From positions 62,001-126,000 of the forward strand of contig SUYO01000002.1 of the NCBI GenBank assembly GCA_015060385.1: a DNA stretch of 64,000 nucleotides, read 5' to 3'. The stretch is from Bacteroidales bacterium. Its GTDB lineage: Bacteria > Bacteroidota > Bacteroidia > Bacteroidales > UBA932. Position 1 is the first letter of the stretch, and each line of letters begins with the position of its first letter. Positions 10,361-63,424 of the stretch are shown piece after piece. The translations under genes and the position numbers were made by a program. The notes beneath the pieces were generated by a model that saw nothing but the letters and a program-made list of their open reading frames with translations, did no database searches and was not told the origin of the DNA.

Positions 10361-10402
10361 GTTCCCGGCCACATTTCCATATTGATTTGTGACCGGGAAC
10401 TG
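10361..10402. repeat. REP-like palindrome, probably also a bidirectional terminator
   Basis: AGTTCCCGGCCACA-tttccatattgatt-TGTGACCGGGAACT, between convergent mntP and the DUF3810 gene. Confidence 0.7.
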
Positions 10403-10405
10403 CTT

Positions 10406-11491
10406 TTAGATATCCCCAGCCACGTTTGACAGTGTTTTTGTTGCCAGGGTTTTGATTGTTTCTTTTTGTACTGAGTACTCTGTTGCAATTATCAGATCGA
10501 TCACCTGCATGTAGTTTTTGGTTCCGCTGCTGATCTTGTTCCCCTTAAGCATGGCGTCATACATTCTGCTTTGTATTTCCCCGAGAGTCTTGCTGTATCT
10601 TGCTTTCCAGTAATTCTGCTGGTCAATCAGCTGTTGCAGGATTTCAGGTCTGATCTGTCGCTGATATTCCTTATATTCGTCCTCGGACAATATCCTGGAG
10701 GCATTTGAAAGTACATATGGAAGCAAAGAGTAATAGCCACTGTACCTTACTTCAGGTATATTAGAATGTCTGCAGATCTGATAGGCCCAGAAGTTAGCCT
10801 CATCTTCATTGCTGACCCCAAGAAGATGAGACAATTCATGTGCATAGCTGAACGCTTTCTGTCCCGGCAGGACATCTTCGTTGACCTGTATCTCACTGAA
10901 AAAGGGACCGATATATCCTACTACGCCAACCGCTGAATACAGACGGTTGAATATCAGGTTCTTTGGGTTTTGCCATGACTTCGGTTCCGATAGGCCGTAT
11001 TGAGCCGGTACTTTCTCGTATCTCTCCTTTATATCTGCAGCAAAGTCGTCATATTCCAGGTTTTCAGGCATCTCTACATAAGAACCGTTCAGATTGTCAG
11101 CATAATCTTGCAGAAACTTTTCGAATATGTCTTCTTCAAACTGCTGCCGTTCTATTTTACCCCTTGAATAGATGCTCTCCCTGAAGTAGTTCATACCCCA
11201 TCCGAGGTAGAACCAGATGATTGCCCAGATTATGATCTCAGCAATAATAAATATGGTCTTCAGCCTTTTCTGAATGATACCTCTTATGGCAAGAACTATA
11301 ATGATGATTCCAGTTCCGACAACCAGCATTTCTTCCATAGAGAACGGAATCCGGGAGACAGCAAAAGATAATGCACATGAAACCAGTGGATAAATTGTGA
11401 CCGCATACCATTCACCGACAGCCGCATTTGTTCTTGCTGCAATAATGAAAGCTGCAAGAATCAACAGTGTCATGTATCTGGTCATCTTCAT
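10406..11491 (-). CDS. DUF3810-like membrane protein with zinc-binding HELxH motif
   Basis: TM-rich N-terminus, FSYAHELSHLLGVSNEDEANFWAY. Confidence 0.75.
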   Translation of the reverse strand: MKMTRYMTLLILAAFIIAARTNAAVGEWYAVTIYPLVSCALSFAVSRIPFSMEEMLVVGTGIIIIVLAIRGIIQKRLKTIFIIAEIIIWAIIWFYLGWGMNYFRESIYSRGKIERQQFEEDIFEKFLQDYADNLNGSYVEMPENLEYDDFAADIKERYEKVPAQYGLSEPKSWQNPKNLIFNRLYSAVGVVGYIGPFFSEIQVNEDVLPGQKAFSYAHELSHLLGVSNEDEANFWAYQICRHSNIPEVRYSGYYSLLPYVLSNASRILSEDEYKEYQRQIRPEILQQLIDQQNYWKARYSKTLGEIQSRMYDAMLKGNKISSGTKNYMQVIDLIIATEYSVQKETIKTLATKTLSNVAGDI

Positions 11492-11540
11492 TACACAAAG
11501 ATAGCAAATTATTATTTCGCGGCATCCATAATCCGTTTTT

Positions 11541-11625
11541 CGGCTACAAATACCCTGTGAAATGTGGCTGCAAGGGTAAAATCAAGTGCCCCGGCCACGA
11601 TAAGAGCCTATAGCGTGGCTGGGAG
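11541..11625. repeat. Two REP-like units upstream of the RAYT gene
   Basis: CGGCTACAAATACCCTGTGAAATGTGGCTG (11541) and CCCCGGCCACGATAAGAGCCTATAGCGTGGCTGGGAG (11589); highly similar to 12743-12827. Confidence 0.75.
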
Positions 11626-11797
11626 CAGATTGATTTGTGCTTTTCATTAAAAGCTGCTATATTTGATACATATAAAAGGTGAGCATCTGACGGATATGTA
11701 TCGTTGCTTGGTCTGCAGGTCGTTCTGACCGGGGTGTCTGTAAATCCCTGTTCGCATGAGTCACCATATGCTGTGTCATTTTAATTATTGTTTACTT

Positions 11798-12739
11798 ATG
11801 CAGACCGAAAATTCAGGAAAACTGTTCTATGACAAAGAGAAGCTTTGTTTATACAACTTCAGTACGGTACAAGACTACTGGCATCTATGTACGCCAGTTA
11901 TGAATGTTCCTATCATCTTTACCTGCCGTGAAGATTTCGAATACGGAATGTGTCTGATGGCGATGTGTGTACATCTCTTCCAGGATATTTCAGTATATAC
12001 ATTTGTCTTGATGAATACGCATATTCATGTGATCCTTTCTGGAGATGAAAACAGATGCAGGGAGTTTTTTGAGATGTTTTCCCGTAAACTAAGGCGCTAT
12101 CTGTCGGAATGTGGCAGAAGTATTGACATGAGCGGATTCGTCCCTCGGCTGATTCCGATAAAAGATCTTCAGATGTTACGTAACGAGATTATTTACGTCA
12201 ATCGTAACGGGTATGTAGCGAACAGCAACTATTCTCCATATTCATATCCATGGGGTGCCGGGATGTACATCTTCAATCCTCTTGCAGAAAAGCTGCCTTA
12301 TATGAATTTTGAAAGACTGACTGTCCGCAAACGACGTGAGATATGCAGGACAAAAGTCATTGATGTCTGTCATGGTATGAAAGTCCATGAGAATATTATT
12401 CTTCCAACCTCTTTCTGCAAAATAAGGGAAGCCGAAAACATGTTTCGTGATGCAGCGCACTATTTCTCCTCGTTAACCAGAAATCATGAGGCATTCAGCG
12501 AAATTGCTAAAAGGATAGGTGACACATCGTTTCTACCAGACAGTGAAATGTATCAGGCAGTTGCGTCAATCTGCAACAAGAAATACGGAATAAGGAAGCC
12601 ATCGCTTCTGACTCCTGCAGCCAAGATGGAAACAGCCAGGATGATGCATTATGAATATCATGCAAGTAACCGGCAGATTCGCAGCATACTGAATATGGAT
12701 ATGGCTGCCATAGATGAAATGTTTCCTAGCTCTCAGTAG
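11798..12739 (+). mobile_element. REP-associated tyrosine transposase (RAYT)-like Y1 transposase gene
   Basis: HUH motif in FVLMNTHIHVILSG; YVNRNGYVANSNYSPYSYPWGAG resembles the conserved RAYT 'Y(I/V)xxNPxxAG...YPWSS' block; flanked by REP palindromes. Confidence 0.8.
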
Positions 12740-12741
12740 AT

Positions 12742-12878
12742 CCGGGCACAAATAGCCTGTGAAATGTGGCTGGAAGGGTAAAACCAGACGCTCCGGCCAC
12801 AAAATCATGGGCAAACGTGGCTGGGAGGGTCATAATAGGGTCTCTAGCCACATTTCAGTCGTTATTTGTGACCGGGAG
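12742..12878. repeat. Three REP-like units downstream of the RAYT gene
   Basis: CCGGGCACAAATAGCCTGTGAAATGTGGCTGG, CTCCGGCCACAAAATCATGGGCAAACGTGGCTGGGAG, CTCTAGCCACATTTCAGTCGTTATTTGTGACCGGGAG; CGG(G/C)CAC-type heads at 12743, 12794, 12845. Confidence 0.8.
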
Positions 12879-29764: not shown

Positions 29765-30928
29765 TTAATTCTTCCGGCCGAAGAAACGGTCGATGATGAG
29801 GGCGATGGCTCCGTCGCCGGTTACGTTGCAGGCTGTGCCGAAGCTGTCCATCGCAATATAAAGGGCAATCATGAGCGCTTGGGCTTCCTGGTCAAATCCC
29901 AACATTGACTGAAGGAGTCCGAGCGCTGCCATTATAGCCCCTCCAGGTACGCCTGGAGCAGCAACCATCGTGATGCCCAGCATGCAGATGAAGCCGAAGA
30001 ACATTCCGAAGTCATAAGGCATGCCCTGCATTATCATAAGCGCGAGGGCGCATGCGACGATCTTCAGCGTACTGCCTGACATATGGATGGTCGAACAGAG
30101 AGGTATGACGAAGCCGGCGACATCCTCGGATACACCGTTCTTTCTTGTCTGTTCAAGTGTCACAGGTATCGTCGCTGCAGATGACTGTGTTCCCAGGGCT
30201 GTGAAATAGGCCGGCAGCATGGTCCAGAGAAGCTTGAGCGGGTTCTTCCTTGCAAAGCCTCCCGCAATGCCGAACTGAAGCAGCAGGATGGCGATATGGA
30301 TCAGGAAGATTATGCCTATTATCTTTATGAAGACTGTCAGGATTGCGAATACCTGGCCCACGAAGGTCATGTTCAGGAAGATTCCGAAGATGTAGAGAGG
30401 CAGCAGGGGAATGATGGCTGTCTTTATGGTCTTGATGATTACCTGCTCGAAATCGTGTACGGCATTCTTGAGAGTATCCCTGCCTTCCAGTACGGCAAGT
30501 CCCAGACCGAGCATGAAGGCGAGTACCAAAGCCGTCATCACGTTCATCAGAGGAGGAATCGTGACGGTGAAGAATGGGAGTGGTTCGCTTGCGGACTCGA
30601 TCTTTGCCAGCGCATCAGATTCTATCATGGAAGGAAATACTGCCGCTCCTGTAAGATAAGAGCAAAGTCCTGCGAAGACAGTGGATCCGTAAGCGATGAG
30701 CACTGTAGCCAGCAGCATCTTGCCGGCTCCCTTTCCGATGTCGGATATGGCCGGAGCTACAAGTCCGACGATGATCAGAGGTATTGCAAAACCTAGGAAC
30801 TGGCTGAAGATTCCGTTGAATGTGAGGAACAGTCTTACTATCCATTCAGGTACTATCATACCAAGTCCTACTCCGAGCGCAATGGCTATCAGAATCTTGG
30901 TCAAAAGGCCGATTTTAGGTGTCTTCAT
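29765..30928 (-). CDS. Dicarboxylate/amino acid:cation symporter (DAACS/SLC1-type)
   Basis: AATIPVTLEQTRKNGVSEDVAGFVIPLCSTIHMSGS, AAPGVPGGAIMAALGLL, DSFGTACNVTGDGAIALIID. Confidence 0.93.
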   Translation of the reverse strand: MKTPKIGLLTKILIAIALGVGLGMIVPEWIVRLFLTFNGIFSQFLGFAIPLIIVGLVAPAISDIGKGAGKMLLATVLIAYGSTVFAGLCSYLTGAAVFPSMIESDALAKIESASEPLPFFTVTIPPLMNVMTALVLAFMLGLGLAVLEGRDTLKNAVHDFEQVIIKTIKTAIIPLLPLYIFGIFLNMTFVGQVFAILTVFIKIIGIIFLIHIAILLLQFGIAGGFARKNPLKLLWTMLPAYFTALGTQSSAATIPVTLEQTRKNGVSEDVAGFVIPLCSTIHMSGSTLKIVACALALMIMQGMPYDFGMFFGFICMLGITMVAAPGVPGGAIMAALGLLQSMLGFDQEAQALMIALYIAMDSFGTACNVTGDGAIALIIDRFFGRKN

Positions 30929-50712: not shown

Positions 50713-50849
50713 TTCCGGCCACGTTTACCCTTGATTCTGTGGCCGGCACCTGGATAATGGCCCTCCCGGCCACGTTTGCCCTTGATTCTGTGGCCGGCAC
50801 CTGGATAATGGCCCTCCCGGCCACGTTTGCCCTTGATTCTGTGGCCGGG
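50713..50849. repeat. Three tandem REP-like units with 51-bp period
   Basis: CCGGCCACGTTT(A/G)CCCTTGATTCTGTGGCCGG at 50717, 50768, 50819 (GGCC starts), separated by CACCTGGATAATGGCCCTC. Confidence 0.88.
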
Positions 50850-50851
50850 CA

Positions 50852-53197
50852 TCACTCCTTCTTCAACGCCTCGGCCGGGTTCGTCCTGGCAGCACGGAGG
50901 GTCTGCCACAGGACGGACGCGAGGGAAAGGGTTACGGACGCGATGCATGCAAGCAGGATCGGCCATAACATGTTTACATCTGGCAGGCCCTGGAGCATGA
51001 ATCCTGACACGATGCTTCCGAGGGGGAGTCCGAAGATGTTTGCCACAAGTATTATCTTCATGTAGGTGCGGATATTTCGTACAGTTTCACTTCGAACTGT
51101 TCCCCCGAAGACCTTATGAATGGCAATGCCTTTGGTATTCTCTTCTGCAAAGTATGAACTCATGGCGAACAGGCCGAGTATTGAAATCACAAGTGCAATC
51201 ACAAGGAATACGGTTGCAAATATGATCATGATCTTCAAGCCTGAAAGAGATTCCTTGATGAATTCTTCTGCATATCCGAAATCCTCCCTGCTTTCATAAT
51301 ATCCTGTAGTCTCGTTACAGTATTTCTCAAGTTCATTCAGTATCGCCTCTCTTGCCTGATCATGAGGCCCTGTCGTCTCGATGGCATAAAAATATCCGTA
51401 TGGATGACTCTCGACTTTAAGGATCTGATATGGGTTTTCGTAAAATCTTGAAGGATCACAACATACAAAGTCCTTGACTACACCTCCTGAATGACAATCT
51501 CTGAATCCTGATACAATTTCAGATGGGTCCACAGACATAAGTTCATCCATACCGACATCTAATCTCTCCACCAGGGATTCGGAATACCATACCGATCCTT
51601 CCAAAGGAACATTGAAAGAATGGGTCTGCGCCAGTCCCATCAGCCTGAAAGTAGTTGTGTCGACCTTGCATACAGTCATCATCAGTTCGTTTCCCTGGAG
51701 ATCATGCTGAGTCATGATATGGTTTCTGGCTATTCCTCCATCGCACATACCTATGGTCTTGACATATGGCAGGGCCCTTAGCCTCTCGATAAATGCCGAG
51801 TCATCACGCGCGTTGCCATAGGTGGATCTTGACAAGAAGAGAATATTATCACTGTTCCATCCTGCAGGAGTGTTCCTGAACTTCATATGGGTCATTCCCA
51901 AGGTGATTGAGAAGACCATCAGAATTATGGCTATTACTGTGTTGATTCCGATGAAGATCTTGCTGAAGACCATTTTCCTGATCTTCTTGAAGCGTCCCTT
52001 TGTAACTTCTATAGGTGAGAACGACATCGCAAGAGCTGCAGGTATCATCCCGGATACAAGTCCGGTTACTGTACCGATGATCAATATCACCGGTACAGAA
52101 CGCCATGTCAGACCGATCGGCGGTATTTCTGTAGGTCCCTGAATCGTTCCTGTGATGATGCTGTTCACAACAGGTGTGACTGCAATGATCAGAAATAATG
52201 CGATAACAGTACATATGGATGCCATCAGCATGCTTTCAACAAGGTGCTGGCGCAGGATTTCACCTTTCTGGGCGCCTACAAGACGCATTGTCGCTATTTC
52301 ATTGCTTCGCTTTGATGTCTGGGCAAATGTAAGGTTTATATAATTGAAGACTGCAGAAAGAAGCAATACGATGGCGATTGCGGCAAGAATGAGTATCAGT
52401 GTCGATCCTGAGTGCATCAGCCCAAAATGTCTTTCATGTATGATAAGGTCATCCAGAGGGTCGGCATAACTGTATTCCGGATTCCAGTGCGGATCTTCAG
52501 TACAGTGCTCATCAATGATTTGCCTTACCTTGTCCGAAAGTTCCTTTCGGTTGACCTGTCCATCAGTCTTCACGAACAGCTGAGGGGAGAATGATATTGC
52601 CGTACAACGGACTCCTGCTTCATGATTGATGACAATACCGGCCGACTCGAAGATGGAATTGTCAAAGTCCTCAATGACAGCCGATACCTGCAGAGTGTTG
52701 AAATATGACGGATTTTCCTTAGATCCGAACTTATTCAATGTAATGGCCTGACCCACAGCTTTCTCTGCACCTCCAAACAACCTGTCCGCCATACTTTGGG
52801 TGATGACGACGGTACCATCATCCTTGAGTCTGCCGATATTTCCCGCCTTTGATTTACGAGGAAACATTTCAAAGAATCCTTCTCCGGCAAGAATGATCTG
52901 GTCCGCAAACATCCCTTCACCATCCTCCACATATATGTTGATGTAGTTGTATATGACATGCTCACGTACTTCAGGAATCTTGTCGATATGGTTATAAAGT
53001 TCCATCGAAGCCATACCCTTTGAGGTACCGTTCAGAGCATATATATATTCATGATCCGGAATCTTCCAGGTCAAGGTGTACATATTCCATGCATGACAGC
53101 CGACGATCATGACAAACGCAAGAGATACGCTCAGTCCCACGACCTCGATTGCAGTGTACAGCTTGTTTCTTCCCAGGAATCTAAGGTAACTTTTCAT
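50852..53197 (-). CDS. FtsX/MacB-like ABC transporter permease
   Basis: MKSYLRFLGRNKLYTAIEVVGLSVSLAFV; C-terminal LRAARTNPAEALKKE. Confidence 0.9.
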   Translation of the reverse strand: MKSYLRFLGRNKLYTAIEVVGLSVSLAFVMIVGCHAWNMYTLTWKIPDHEYIYALNGTSKGMASMELYNHIDKIPEVREHVIYNYINIYVEDGEGMFADQIILAGEGFFEMFPRKSKAGNIGRLKDDGTVVITQSMADRLFGGAEKAVGQAITLNKFGSKENPSYFNTLQVSAVIEDFDNSIFESAGIVINHEAGVRCTAISFSPQLFVKTDGQVNRKELSDKVRQIIDEHCTEDPHWNPEYSYADPLDDLIIHERHFGLMHSGSTLILILAAIAIVLLLSAVFNYINLTFAQTSKRSNEIATMRLVGAQKGEILRQHLVESMLMASICTVIALFLIIAVTPVVNSIITGTIQGPTEIPPIGLTWRSVPVILIIGTVTGLVSGMIPAALAMSFSPIEVTKGRFKKIRKMVFSKIFIGINTVIAIILMVFSITLGMTHMKFRNTPAGWNSDNILFLSRSTYGNARDDSAFIERLRALPYVKTIGMCDGGIARNHIMTQHDLQGNELMMTVCKVDTTTFRLMGLAQTHSFNVPLEGSVWYSESLVERLDVGMDELMSVDPSEIVSGFRDCHSGGVVKDFVCCDPSRFYENPYQILKVESHPYGYFYAIETTGPHDQAREAILNELEKYCNETTGYYESREDFGYAEEFIKESLSGLKIMIIFATVFLVIALVISILGLFAMSSYFAEENTKGIAIHKVFGGTVRSETVRNIRTYMKIILVANIFGLPLGSIVSGFMLQGLPDVNMLWPILLACIASVTLSLASVLWQTLRAARTNPAEALKKE

Positions 53198-53220: not shown

Positions 53221-53354
53221 CTGTCCGGGATTATCCTTGTTTTCCCGGATAAGTTTCAACTATTCTATCGTTCGTCCGGAAATTCGCTTGTTTTCCCGGA
53301 CAGGTTATTCTTTTACCTTCGCCTGTCCGGAATCCAAGGCACATTTCCGGACGA
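53221..53354. repeat. Three palindromic units (TCCGG...CCGGA) with 51-bp spacing
   Basis: GTCCGG at 53223, 53274, 53325; each followed by a TTTTCCCGGA/ATTTCCGGA arm. Confidence 0.7.
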
Positions 53355-55908: not shown

Positions 55909-55942
55909 TAAAATTTATTTTATCATGCTAAAATAAATTTTA

Positions 55943-55959: not shown

Positions 55960-55986
55960 AAAGAAAAGTGAGATGATGCTAAAGTT

Positions 55987-56110
55987 TTAATGAAACTCTA
56001 TCGTATAGAAACAGTAGTCATGAACATCATCAATATTTACCCATTCTTTAGGATGCTGATGTTTATCTCTCAGACCACAATAATCCTGAGTAAACATATG
56101 CGTTCCCATG
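55987..56110 (-). pseudogene. Truncated duplicate of the 3' end of the 58783-59430 gene
   Basis: Encodes FTQDYCGLRDKHQHPKEWVNIDDVHDYCFYTIEFH, matching the C-terminus of 58783-59430; near-identical at DNA level. Confidence 0.8.
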
Positions 56111-58697: not shown

Positions 58698-58782
58698 AAT
58701 GCAAATGTTATACGAAATAGTCTATCATTACAAAACGGCATCAATCCTTTCGTGAACTATCCCGATTAAAACCACTAATATT

Positions 58783-59430
58783 TTAATGAAACTCTATCGT
58801 ATAAAAACAATAGTCATGAACATCATCAATATTTACCCATTCTTTAGGATGTTGGTGTTTATCTCTCAGACCACAATAATCCTGAGTAAACATAGGCGTT
58901 CCCATAAAATCCATTGCTCCGCAAATTCCTCCGGTTACTGCAAATATAGGAATCTCATCGTTTATAGTAAAAGCCTGATCAACATAAGTTTCCATTGGAA
59001 TGTAACTGCATGATTGTCCTTCGGGGAAAGATATCATAAAGTTTCTTGGAATCATCAGATCCATAGTCCTTCCGTTAACGGCAAAAGCGACAGCAACAGT
59101 ATCCCGCTGCTGCTTCATCATCACTTCAATGGACATTCCATCCTTATTGGGAATACTGATTCCTGACATCTGCACAGGAATACCCATGTCAAATTTTGAA
59201 ACAACACCATTCTTAGCAGTATAAAAGTTGAAGACTGCTGTTTTCTTGGAAGACAAATCAGCCTGAACATCTATCTTCAGGTAGGTTTTATTATCCAACT
59301 TCAATGACAGTTGAGTTGGCACATCCGCATTGATCTTTTCAGAATAATCAACTTGGACATTTTGTGCATATGTTGGCATAGTGCTGGCAATTATCATTGC
59401 GGCACAGATTGTTAATGCAATCTTTCTCAT
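58783..59430 (-). CDS. Hypothetical secreted protein
   Basis: Signal peptide MRKIALTICAAMIIASTMPTYAQ; no recognised domain. Confidence 0.6.
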   Translation of the reverse strand: MRKIALTICAAMIIASTMPTYAQNVQVDYSEKINADVPTQLSLKLDNKTYLKIDVQADLSSKKTAVFNFYTAKNGVVSKFDMGIPVQMSGISIPNKDGMSIEVMMKQQRDTVAVAFAVNGRTMDLMIPRNFMISFPEGQSCSYIPMETYVDQAFTINDEIPIFAVTGGICGAMDFMGTPMFTQDYCGLRDKHQHPKEWVNIDDVHDYCFYTIEFH

Positions 59431-61513: not shown

Positions 61514-63424
61514 CTATTCTCCCATCGCCTTCAGAAGCTGAACTTTCATTGTCTCAGTGCCCGAGAAACCGGTATGTTTCCAGCATATGTTTCCATCCGG
61601 ATCCACAATCAGATAGGTCGGCACGCCTTCTATGTTAAAGATGTTGCCAAGGTAGTCATGCTGCTTCTCACTGAGTCTGTAATGCTCTCCTTTGAGATCA
61701 GGAATCATGTTCTCCCATGTTTCCTTAGGGGAACTTTCGCTTGCAAGGTAAATGTAGACTATATCCTTGTCCTTGAGTTCTTCCTTGAGCGGAGCCATGC
61801 TCTGGTTCGCACTGCGGCATGGACCGCACCAGGTCTCCCAGAAATCCACCAGTATGGTCTTTCCACGGAACGGAGCGATTATGGATGCGAACAGATCTTC
61901 GTAAGCCACTTCGCCTGTCTCATTCTTCCTGAAACCTTCTACTTTCTTGTTTCTCTCGATAGTGGCGATCAGGTCTGCATTAGCATTTTCTATATATTGC
62001 CTGTAGGCATCCGGAAGCTGCTGCACCTTTGCCATAAGTTCGTCGTCAAGTGGTTTGAATTCAGTAATGTCACGCATCAGGAAGCATGCATCGGCAATCT
62101 CCAGAAAACTGCCTTCTGTCCTGAGGAAAGGATAGTTGATGAAAGCATGTTCAGTCGACATGTGCATGAAGATATCTTTGACATAGTGATAACCTTCAGT
62201 AAATGCTGCAGCCGGAACATTCATGACTTCCACAAGGTCTGCCGGTATCAGCCGGTCCCTTTCCTGCATGTATGCGCCAAGTAGTTCTATATACTCTTCG
62301 GTAGACTTGTTCTGTGCCAATGTCTTGTTGTAAGCCAATTCAGCAGGGGCGTGGATCAAGCTATAGAGCAGATTCGTGCGTATGAAGAGTGTGAAATACT
62401 CCTTGACGGCTAGAGGAAGATCTGCATTCTCGGCCATTTCCATCTCCTTATCTGACTCTTCGATCATCTTGTCGACTAACTTTTTCAGGTCATAGCTTGT
62501 CAATTCAGACTCCAAGGAATCACGCATCTCTGCTTCATAGACTCTTAGCTCATTTGAAAAACTATCCTCCAGATCAGCAAAAGCCTGATTCAGCGCAGCA
62601 TGTGCTCCTTTGAACACTACAAAAGGTTCTGCAGGTCTTCTGTCAGCGAAGAGTGAATTCCTGCGGCTGTTCTCACGCAGGTTCACGATGCATTCTGTCG
62701 TTTCTCCCGGCTCCAGAAAAACTGTCAGAAGCTTGTTGAATCCACCGGATCCTACCTTCACACAACTAGTCTGAACAACCGGAACCTCTACCTGGAAGGT
62801 ACCGTCATCAGACAGATAACCATCCTTATATCCGGACTCGGAAAGCAGGTTGTAGTTCTCAAAATATATACGGTTCATCTGATCGTCAGGACGATGGCCC
62901 AGGACCTTGATCTTGAGCGTTGCCTTGCCATATTCCTGCTTTATCTCGGGAAGGGGCGCATCGGCTGTGAGCTTCTCCGGCTTCGGCATACTGATCTTCG
63001 GTAATTTTCCGTCAAGACGGATTCCCCATATTCTGAAAGCTCCCTGCTCGTATCCTTCAATGAAGTCTATGGAATTCACTCCGGTCGGAATCGGAGGAAA
63101 GGTCAAGGTAAACTGCGCCTCTCCAGAATCCGGCATCCAGAATTCCTTGTCGAGTTCAATGCCATCTGCCGAGACAATCGGATATTGATTGCCGTTCTCA
63201 TCGGCAAGGAATGTAGATGACACGATCTTGATCCACCAATGCGGAGTGAATCTTGCCTCAACATGAAGGACAGTTGTAGAATCCGTCAGGTCGATTCTTG
63301 ATATTTCGACGGTTTTAGTGTTACGAACCTCATAGAGAGGAGCTTCGATCGTACCGCGATGCGGCTGCTGGCTGCATGCTACAATGCACAGTATTGTCGA
63401 CAAAACAAATAATATCTTTTTCAT
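61514..63424 (-). CDS. TlpA-family thioredoxin-like lipoprotein
   Basis: VDFWETWCGPCRSANQSMAPLKEEL; lipobox IVAC. Confidence 0.9.
   Translation of the reverse strand: MKKILFVLSTILCIVACSQQPHRGTIEAPLYEVRNTKTVEISRIDLTDSTTVLHVEARFTPHWWIKIVSSTFLADENGNQYPIVSADGIELDKEFWMPDSGEAQFTLTFPPIPTGVNSIDFIEGYEQGAFRIWGIRLDGKLPKISMPKPEKLTADAPLPEIKQEYGKATLKIKVLGHRPDDQMNRIYFENYNLLSESGYKDGYLSDDGTFQVEVPVVQTSCVKVGSGGFNKLLTVFLEPGETTECIVNLRENSRRNSLFADRRPAEPFVVFKGAHAALNQAFADLEDSFSNELRVYEAEMRDSLESELTSYDLKKLVDKMIEESDKEMEMAENADLPLAVKEYFTLFIRTNLLYSLIHAPAELAYNKTLAQNKSTEEYIELLGAYMQERDRLIPADLVEVMNVPAAAFTEGYHYVKDIFMHMSTEHAFINYPFLRTEGSFLEIADACFLMRDITEFKPLDDELMAKVQQLPDAYRQYIENANADLIATIERNKKVEGFRKNETGEVAYEDLFASIIAPFRGKTILVDFWETWCGPCRSANQSMAPLKEELKDKDIVYIYLASESSPKETWENMIPDLKGEHYRLSEKQHDYLGNIFNIEGVPTYLIVDPDGNICWKHTGFSGTETMKVQLLKAMGE

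Follow-up and report, generated by a model that had tools for sequence, protein, structure and literature searches.

Which unit a REP-associated tyrosine transposase (RAYT) acts on, and why some bacterial genomes keep REP doublets, are unsettled questions. Both are touched by a locus in the 64,000-nucleotide stretch analysed here, which spans positions 62,001 to 126,000 of contig SUYO01000002.1 (assembly GCA_015060385.1) and is called the window below. An earlier reading of the sequence alone had proposed a RAYT-like gene bracketed by cognate REP-like palindromes in a Bacteroidales genome. The host does belong to Bacteroidales, more precisely to Candidatus Cryptobacteroides.

The RAYT-like gene and the palindromes of the window

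The RAYT-like HUH/Y1 gene is found at 11798-12739 on the forward strand, with an alternative start at 11756, and is recognised by motifs, alignment and an AlphaFold model. The reading frame is open from either start and contains the two blocks described earlier, the HUH motif (NTHIHVILSG) and the Y block (YVNRNGYVA...YPWGAG). Residues H75, H77, Y133 and N137 (numbered in the 313-aa form) are invariant in family alignments of 27 and 51 members. In the AlphaFold (AF2) model (pLDDT 91, pTM 0.84) the HUH core covers approximately residues 27-141 and a helical C-terminal domain approximately residues 160-310. The top PDB fold match in Foldseek was 4er8, the E. coli RAYT with bound REP hairpin (probability 1.00, E-value only 5e-3), followed by the TnpA proteins of ISDra2, S. 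tokodaii and ISHp608. The C-terminal domain by itself gave no significant match in the fold search. Searched alone, the window protein matched neither Pfam nor the PDB sequences. Against the NCBIfam model REP_Tyr_transpos (NF047646) it scored 12.3 bits and its best-scoring paralogue, L005, 38.3 bits (1e-9), both under the 80-bit cut-off. L005 also connects the family to Y1_Tnp (2.8e-5). With the NCBIfam IS200 model (cut-off 55 bits) the window protein had no match and L005 reached 15.7 bits. The assignment of the window protein to the RAYT-like HUH/Y1 enzymes is supported by motif and fold, and the profile links are weak but consistent.

Relatives were located by an alignment-based contig scan; a scan with the single protein had given no match. 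The family is present in 32 of the 37 Candidatus Cryptobacteroides genomes, with at most nine matches per genome, and was detected in none of 24 other families of the order and in none of 298 other, evenly drawn Bacteroidota genomes (E ≤ 1e-15). It is a diverged family missed by Pfam and found here only in Candidatus Cryptobacteroides. The data are sequence-based and come mostly from MAGs. The genome that carries the window, itself 75% complete, encodes five relatives of the window protein: four full-length paralogues (47, 39, 24 and 22% identical to it) and one C-terminal fragment. The sequence-only reading had named grouping with IS200/IS605 elements that have copies elsewhere as an argument against it; this does not hold, the paralogues being at most 47% identical. 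A lone 136-aa ORF (L006:1480-1890; contig C34:123007-123396) consists of the RAYT C-terminal domain only and is flanked by other repeats. RAYT genes also occur paired on one contig, about 4-6 kb apart (L152/L161 and L186/L205).

The palindrome family beside the gene, REP1, has two units upstream (11540-11571, a 32-mer, and 11591-11622) and three downstream (12742-12773, two bases past the RAYT stop codon, 12793-12824 and 12844-12875), the last with its loop inverted. This confirms the layout read from the sequence alone, and within each cluster the start-to-start distance is exactly 51 bp. The accompanying description as BIME-like is weak: the third downstream unit is indeed inverted, but most units are repeated directly, with a fixed pitch of 51 bp. 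Another REP1 unit is located between mntP and a DUF3810 gene (10365-10396), and the next one, 51 bp further (10416-10447), overlaps this gene (10406-11491, reverse strand) and makes its 3' end. A REP1 array of three units at the same pitch (50715-50848; starts at 50715, 50766 and 50817) lies directly 3' of an FtsX-like permease gene (50852-53197, reverse strand). The REP1 sites are therefore at 10.4, 11.6, 12.8 and 50.7 kb of the window. The REP1 pattern matched 11 times in the window against a shuffled mean of 0.12, and these matches represent nine REP1 units, one of them on both strands, and a chance-like match at 30725.

A further array of three units with 51-bp pitch (53221-53354; starts at 53221, 53272 and 53323) stands between two FtsX-like permease genes. 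It belongs to a different family, REP3, with the palindrome TGTCCGGAAA...TTTCCGGACA and its cognate RAYT (L003) on contig C12. The window gene had been taken as the cognate RAYT for all REPs scattered through the window, which holds for REP1 and fails for this 53.2-kb cluster. A palindrome confined to a few sites had been named as an argument against the whole idea. REP1 is so confined, with ten units at four sites in the 75% complete genome, all on this contig within about 40 kb, but its sister families REP2 and REP3 are dispersed. Two other repeats were seen in this part of the window. A near-perfect 34-bp AT-rich palindrome, TAAAATTTATTTTATCATGCTAAAATAAATTTTA, is present at 55909-55942, and L005 on contig C1 has a near copy of it (1321-1354) upstream of its RAYT-like gene. 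The region of tandem FtsX-like permease genes contains a 131-nt direct duplication, 95% identical (55979-56109 and 58775-58905).

Palindrome families and their pitch

The locus L002 is flanked by REP2 (TCAAAAG[A/C]ACAAAA...TTTTGT[G/T]CTTTTGA) and L003 by REP3, and every RAYT examined is bordered on either side by a palindrome family of its own. In the genome of the window REP2 counts 10 units and REP3 18, both dispersed, and reversed-pattern controls gave 0. Among 61 genomes REP2 was found in only two, the two with a REP2-type RAYT. Clean palindromes from 59 loci fell into 37 sequence clusters. REP arms are alike only among RAYTs that are at least 70% identical (median similarity 0.95); the value is 0.59 for RAYTs 50-70% identical and 0.50-0.55 below that, with a random median of 0.45. 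Whatever the identity, most pairs differ in pitch by 0-1 bp. This co-variation of RAYT and REP and the tracking of REP2 with its RAYT, added to motif, fold and profile links, bear out the claim of a RAYT-like protein flanked by cognate REP-like palindromes.

Among the clusters examined 15 of 16 are intergenic, often directly 3' of genes. The loops of adjacent units are direct in 76 cases and inverted in 17, with 17 ties. The tetranucleotide GT[AG]G was found at 8 of 234 hairpin feet, which equals the background of 0.034. In L034-L043 several REP2 doublets pair a GAACAAAA-stem unit with a GCACAAAA-stem unit and are heterodimer-like.

An unbiased lag scan, in which flanks were compared with themselves, placed lags 51 and 52 far above every other. 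Tandem flank repeats were significant in 129 of 171 non-redundant RAYT loci and absent at this level in 42. The period was 50-53 in 102 of the 129 (51 in 74, 52 in 22, 50 in 5 and 53 in 1), counts that are not independent trials, the loci being related by descent. Distal flanks, used as a control, were significant in 21 of 111 cases with scattered periods (seven at 50-52), and shuffling left 2 of 171 loci significant. Independent palindrome calling gave distances between adjacent centres of 51.0 in 66 cases, 52.0 in 23 and 50.0 in 7. A frequent distance of 25.5-26 bp was rejected as a spacing of its own, as two identical palindromes trivially give a dyad at half the pitch. In the genome of the window each of the 34 scanned REP1, REP2 and REP3 units is matched by a partner 51 bp away; for several of them 52 scores as high, and in two of these 52 is listed first, ties that are due to loop-length slack.

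The pitch is not universal in the family. It partly follows the tree, and periods of 26, 36-41, 63 and 72-85 occur in some divergent clades. In L185 and L205 the period is 41 bp, not 51. Because divergent clades with other periods or none exist, the 51-bp rule is that of the main clade and 52 bp that of a second clade, and neither applies to every relative. Clades that lack the 51-bp pitch have the C-terminal domain as well, so this domain is not sufficient for it. Canonical RAYTs of other Bacteroidales, taken as a control, showed lags of 54-57, 65, 76, 96 or 112 or none, and none at 51.

The same pitch is composed differently in different families: a 36-nt palindrome and a 15-nt spacer in REP2, 32 and 19 nt in REP1 and REP3. 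The strong negative correlation of palindrome and spacer length is a consequence of definition at fixed pitch and does not count as evidence. Spacers of the three families are constant in length and low in identity except for a central A-tract. The mean of 33 dissimilar units has A/T tracts approximately 5-6 bp to each side of the palindrome centre and another at mid-spacer (approximately 25.5 bp), and its outer arms have no common sequence. The mid-spacer A-tract occurs in nearly all REP1, REP2 and REP3 spacers; these were oriented to the A-rich strand, which inflates the A-tract fraction and leaves its position unaffected. The frame is constant around variable arms. An assembly artefact is an unlikely source of the regularity, as units vary in spacer and loop, and MAGs of many projects show the same pitch. 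CRISPR-like regular repeats and spacers were rejected on repeat anatomy alone, the units being palindromes tied to a RAYT.

Gain and loss of units between and inside genes

At the convergent PNP-nadE junction, genome G021 possesses a REP2-like doublet in a gap of 101 bp; in G032 the gap is 97 bp and holds a doublet that has diverged but keeps the pitch. In G007, whose PNP is 95% identical, the gap is 3 bp and the doublet is absent. Elsewhere the two genes abut or overlap in several genomes, and a plain terminator occupies this position in G026 and G114.

Units are also found inside genes. The linker that joins the homocysteine and pterin domains of metH contains an in-frame REP3 array. Between fixed motifs this linker measures 64 aa with one unit (G007), 81 aa with two (G000 and G021) and 98 aa with three (G032), steps of exactly 17 codons (51 bp). 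In G024, G097 and G030 it is 58-61 aa long with no clear unit. In the genome that carries the window, metH (contig C27:17109-18626, outside the window; L295, L030) has, apart from its linker doublet, some 57 additional aa in the N-terminal domain (P0001 residues 198-254), which G024 and G097 lack. In the DUF3810 gene beside the RAYT, the last codons (10406-10456) are made by a REP1 unit and lie past the Pfam domain (residues 29-335). Its 63%-identical orthologues (L244, L245) end earlier and differently, and are too diverged for an empty-site comparison of the RAYT site by synteny. The junction, metH and DUF3810 cases show change in whole units, of which the RAYT would be the presumed cause.

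A hairpin pair as candidate substrate

HUH enzymes of the Y1 fold cut single-stranded DNA beside hairpins. The reading that we favour, if by no great degree, is a lineage-specific RAYT-REP system with a Y1-type HUH endonuclease/transposase, the substrate of which would be two adjacent hairpins about 51 bp (five helical turns) apart and not one hairpin. The variable outer stem arms would be the likely address read by the cognate RAYT, within a constant frame made up of loop-closing A/T tracts and a mid-spacer A-tract. With two hairpins at a fixed distance, one enzyme assembly would have two places to cut. The RAYT would cleave equivalent places in neighbouring hairpins, and joining would release or capture one 51-nt unit. 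One such unit or a doublet could be moved, added or lost, and copying would not extend to doublets of other spacing. That spacing is fixed and sequence free suggests an assembly that accepts only about five helical turns. Cleavage, RAYT-driven mobility and measurement of the pitch by the RAYT, perhaps via its C-terminal domain, are predictions from comparative data, and some of the constancy could reflect slow change in length. A broader proposal is offered tentatively: recognition may be self-diversifying, with a genus-specific HUH family repeatedly evolving new hairpin addresses (at least 37 clusters) and the five-turn, 51-bp frame staying fixed because the enzyme, perhaps via the C-terminal domain, measures the hairpin distance. 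Arrays would then change in 51-nt quanta, also inside genes.

The pitch of an ordinary RAYT and its REPs could also be passively inherited from a 51-bp tandem array in an ancestor, with indels rarer than substitutions and no enzyme measuring. The 52-bp and 49-50-bp subclades, with 18 changes on the tree, agree with such inheritance, and identical units in some arrays indicate that simple tandem duplication occurs. However, arms and spacers have near-random similarity while in every scanned cluster of the three families the length has stayed the same, REP2 (36 + 15) and REP1/REP3 (32 + 19) arrive at the same 51, and the A-tract stays at mid-spacer. Passive heritage is thus unlikely, and the other two explanations are less probable still. 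If the palindromes were host elements, such as bidirectional terminators or mRNA-stability hairpins, with RAYT genes merely among them, the intergenic position of 15 of the 16 clusters, often just 3' of genes, would be expected; an own palindrome family on both flanks of each RAYT, the REP2 that follows its RAYT across 61 genomes and the in-frame doublet in metH make this improbable. Insertion sequences of the IS200/IS605 type, moving as whole elements with terminal hairpins, would share the HUH/Y1 fold and have homologous arrays at both gene ends, but the genome has no near-identical gene copies (only the 47-22% identical paralogues) and hairpin doublets are found without a gene, so that this origin is, by a little, the least probable.

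The proposed hairpin-pair system appears to be a variant of the RAYT-REP kind, with which it shares the enzyme core, cognate palindromes and dispersal. Like RAYT/TnpA_REP and REPtrons (E. coli TnpA_REP, 4er8), it has an HUH and single-Tyr core, flanking cognate palindromes, repeat copies elsewhere in the genome, and a RAYT and REP that vary together. Unlike them, its hairpin feet lack GT[AG]G above background and its proteins carry an extra C-terminal domain of about 150 aa. In the REPs of Nunvar 2010 two REPs are in inverted orientation (PMC2817692), whereas those of Cryptobacteroides are mainly direct at fixed pitch. In the REPINs of Pseudomonas fluorescens SBW25 doublets are inverted in 93%, and the spacing is 71 or 110 bp by family in the same genome (PMC3116915). 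As with REPINs, the doublet is the dispersed unit and spacing is constant within a family; here, in contrast, loops are mostly direct and unrelated families share one spacing. The TnpA proteins of IS200/IS605 (IS608, ISDra2) have the same catalytic fold, and joint use of two hairpins is proposed for both, but they differ from the present system in that it has no identical gene copies and its hairpin pairs are dispersed without the gene.

Among published RAYT subclasses, 2.1 and 2.3 have large C-terminal domains and had no REPs, according to a HuH survey (PMC6006769); by that account the large C-terminal domain together with REPs is an unusual combination. The same survey describes, for the Bacteroidetes subclass 2.6 (Bertels group 5), atypical flanking structures without GT[AG]G and with copies elsewhere in the genome; it gives median lengths of 179 and 194 aa for subclasses 2.6 and 2.4, with YIH[QN]NP or YIxNNP as the Y motif (PMC6006769). 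By these descriptions the present family resembles subclass 2.6 in its Bacteroidetes host, flanking repeats without GT[AG]G and genomic copies, and is set apart from 2.6 and 2.4 by a length of about 310 aa and Y-x-x-R-N. In the open literature searched, no mention of a 51-bp pitch was found for these two subclasses, and no report on repeats of Candidatus Cryptobacteroides.

The new point is the 51-bp spacing across unrelated repeat families. It amounts to a natural experiment repeated many times, in which the address sequence varies and the spacing is constant, so that distance is testable with the hairpins kept. The many RAYT-REP pairs of the family are also material for studying hairpin reading by HUH enzymes, and metH shows a protein linker lengthened by transposase-linked repeats, exactly 17 codons at a time.
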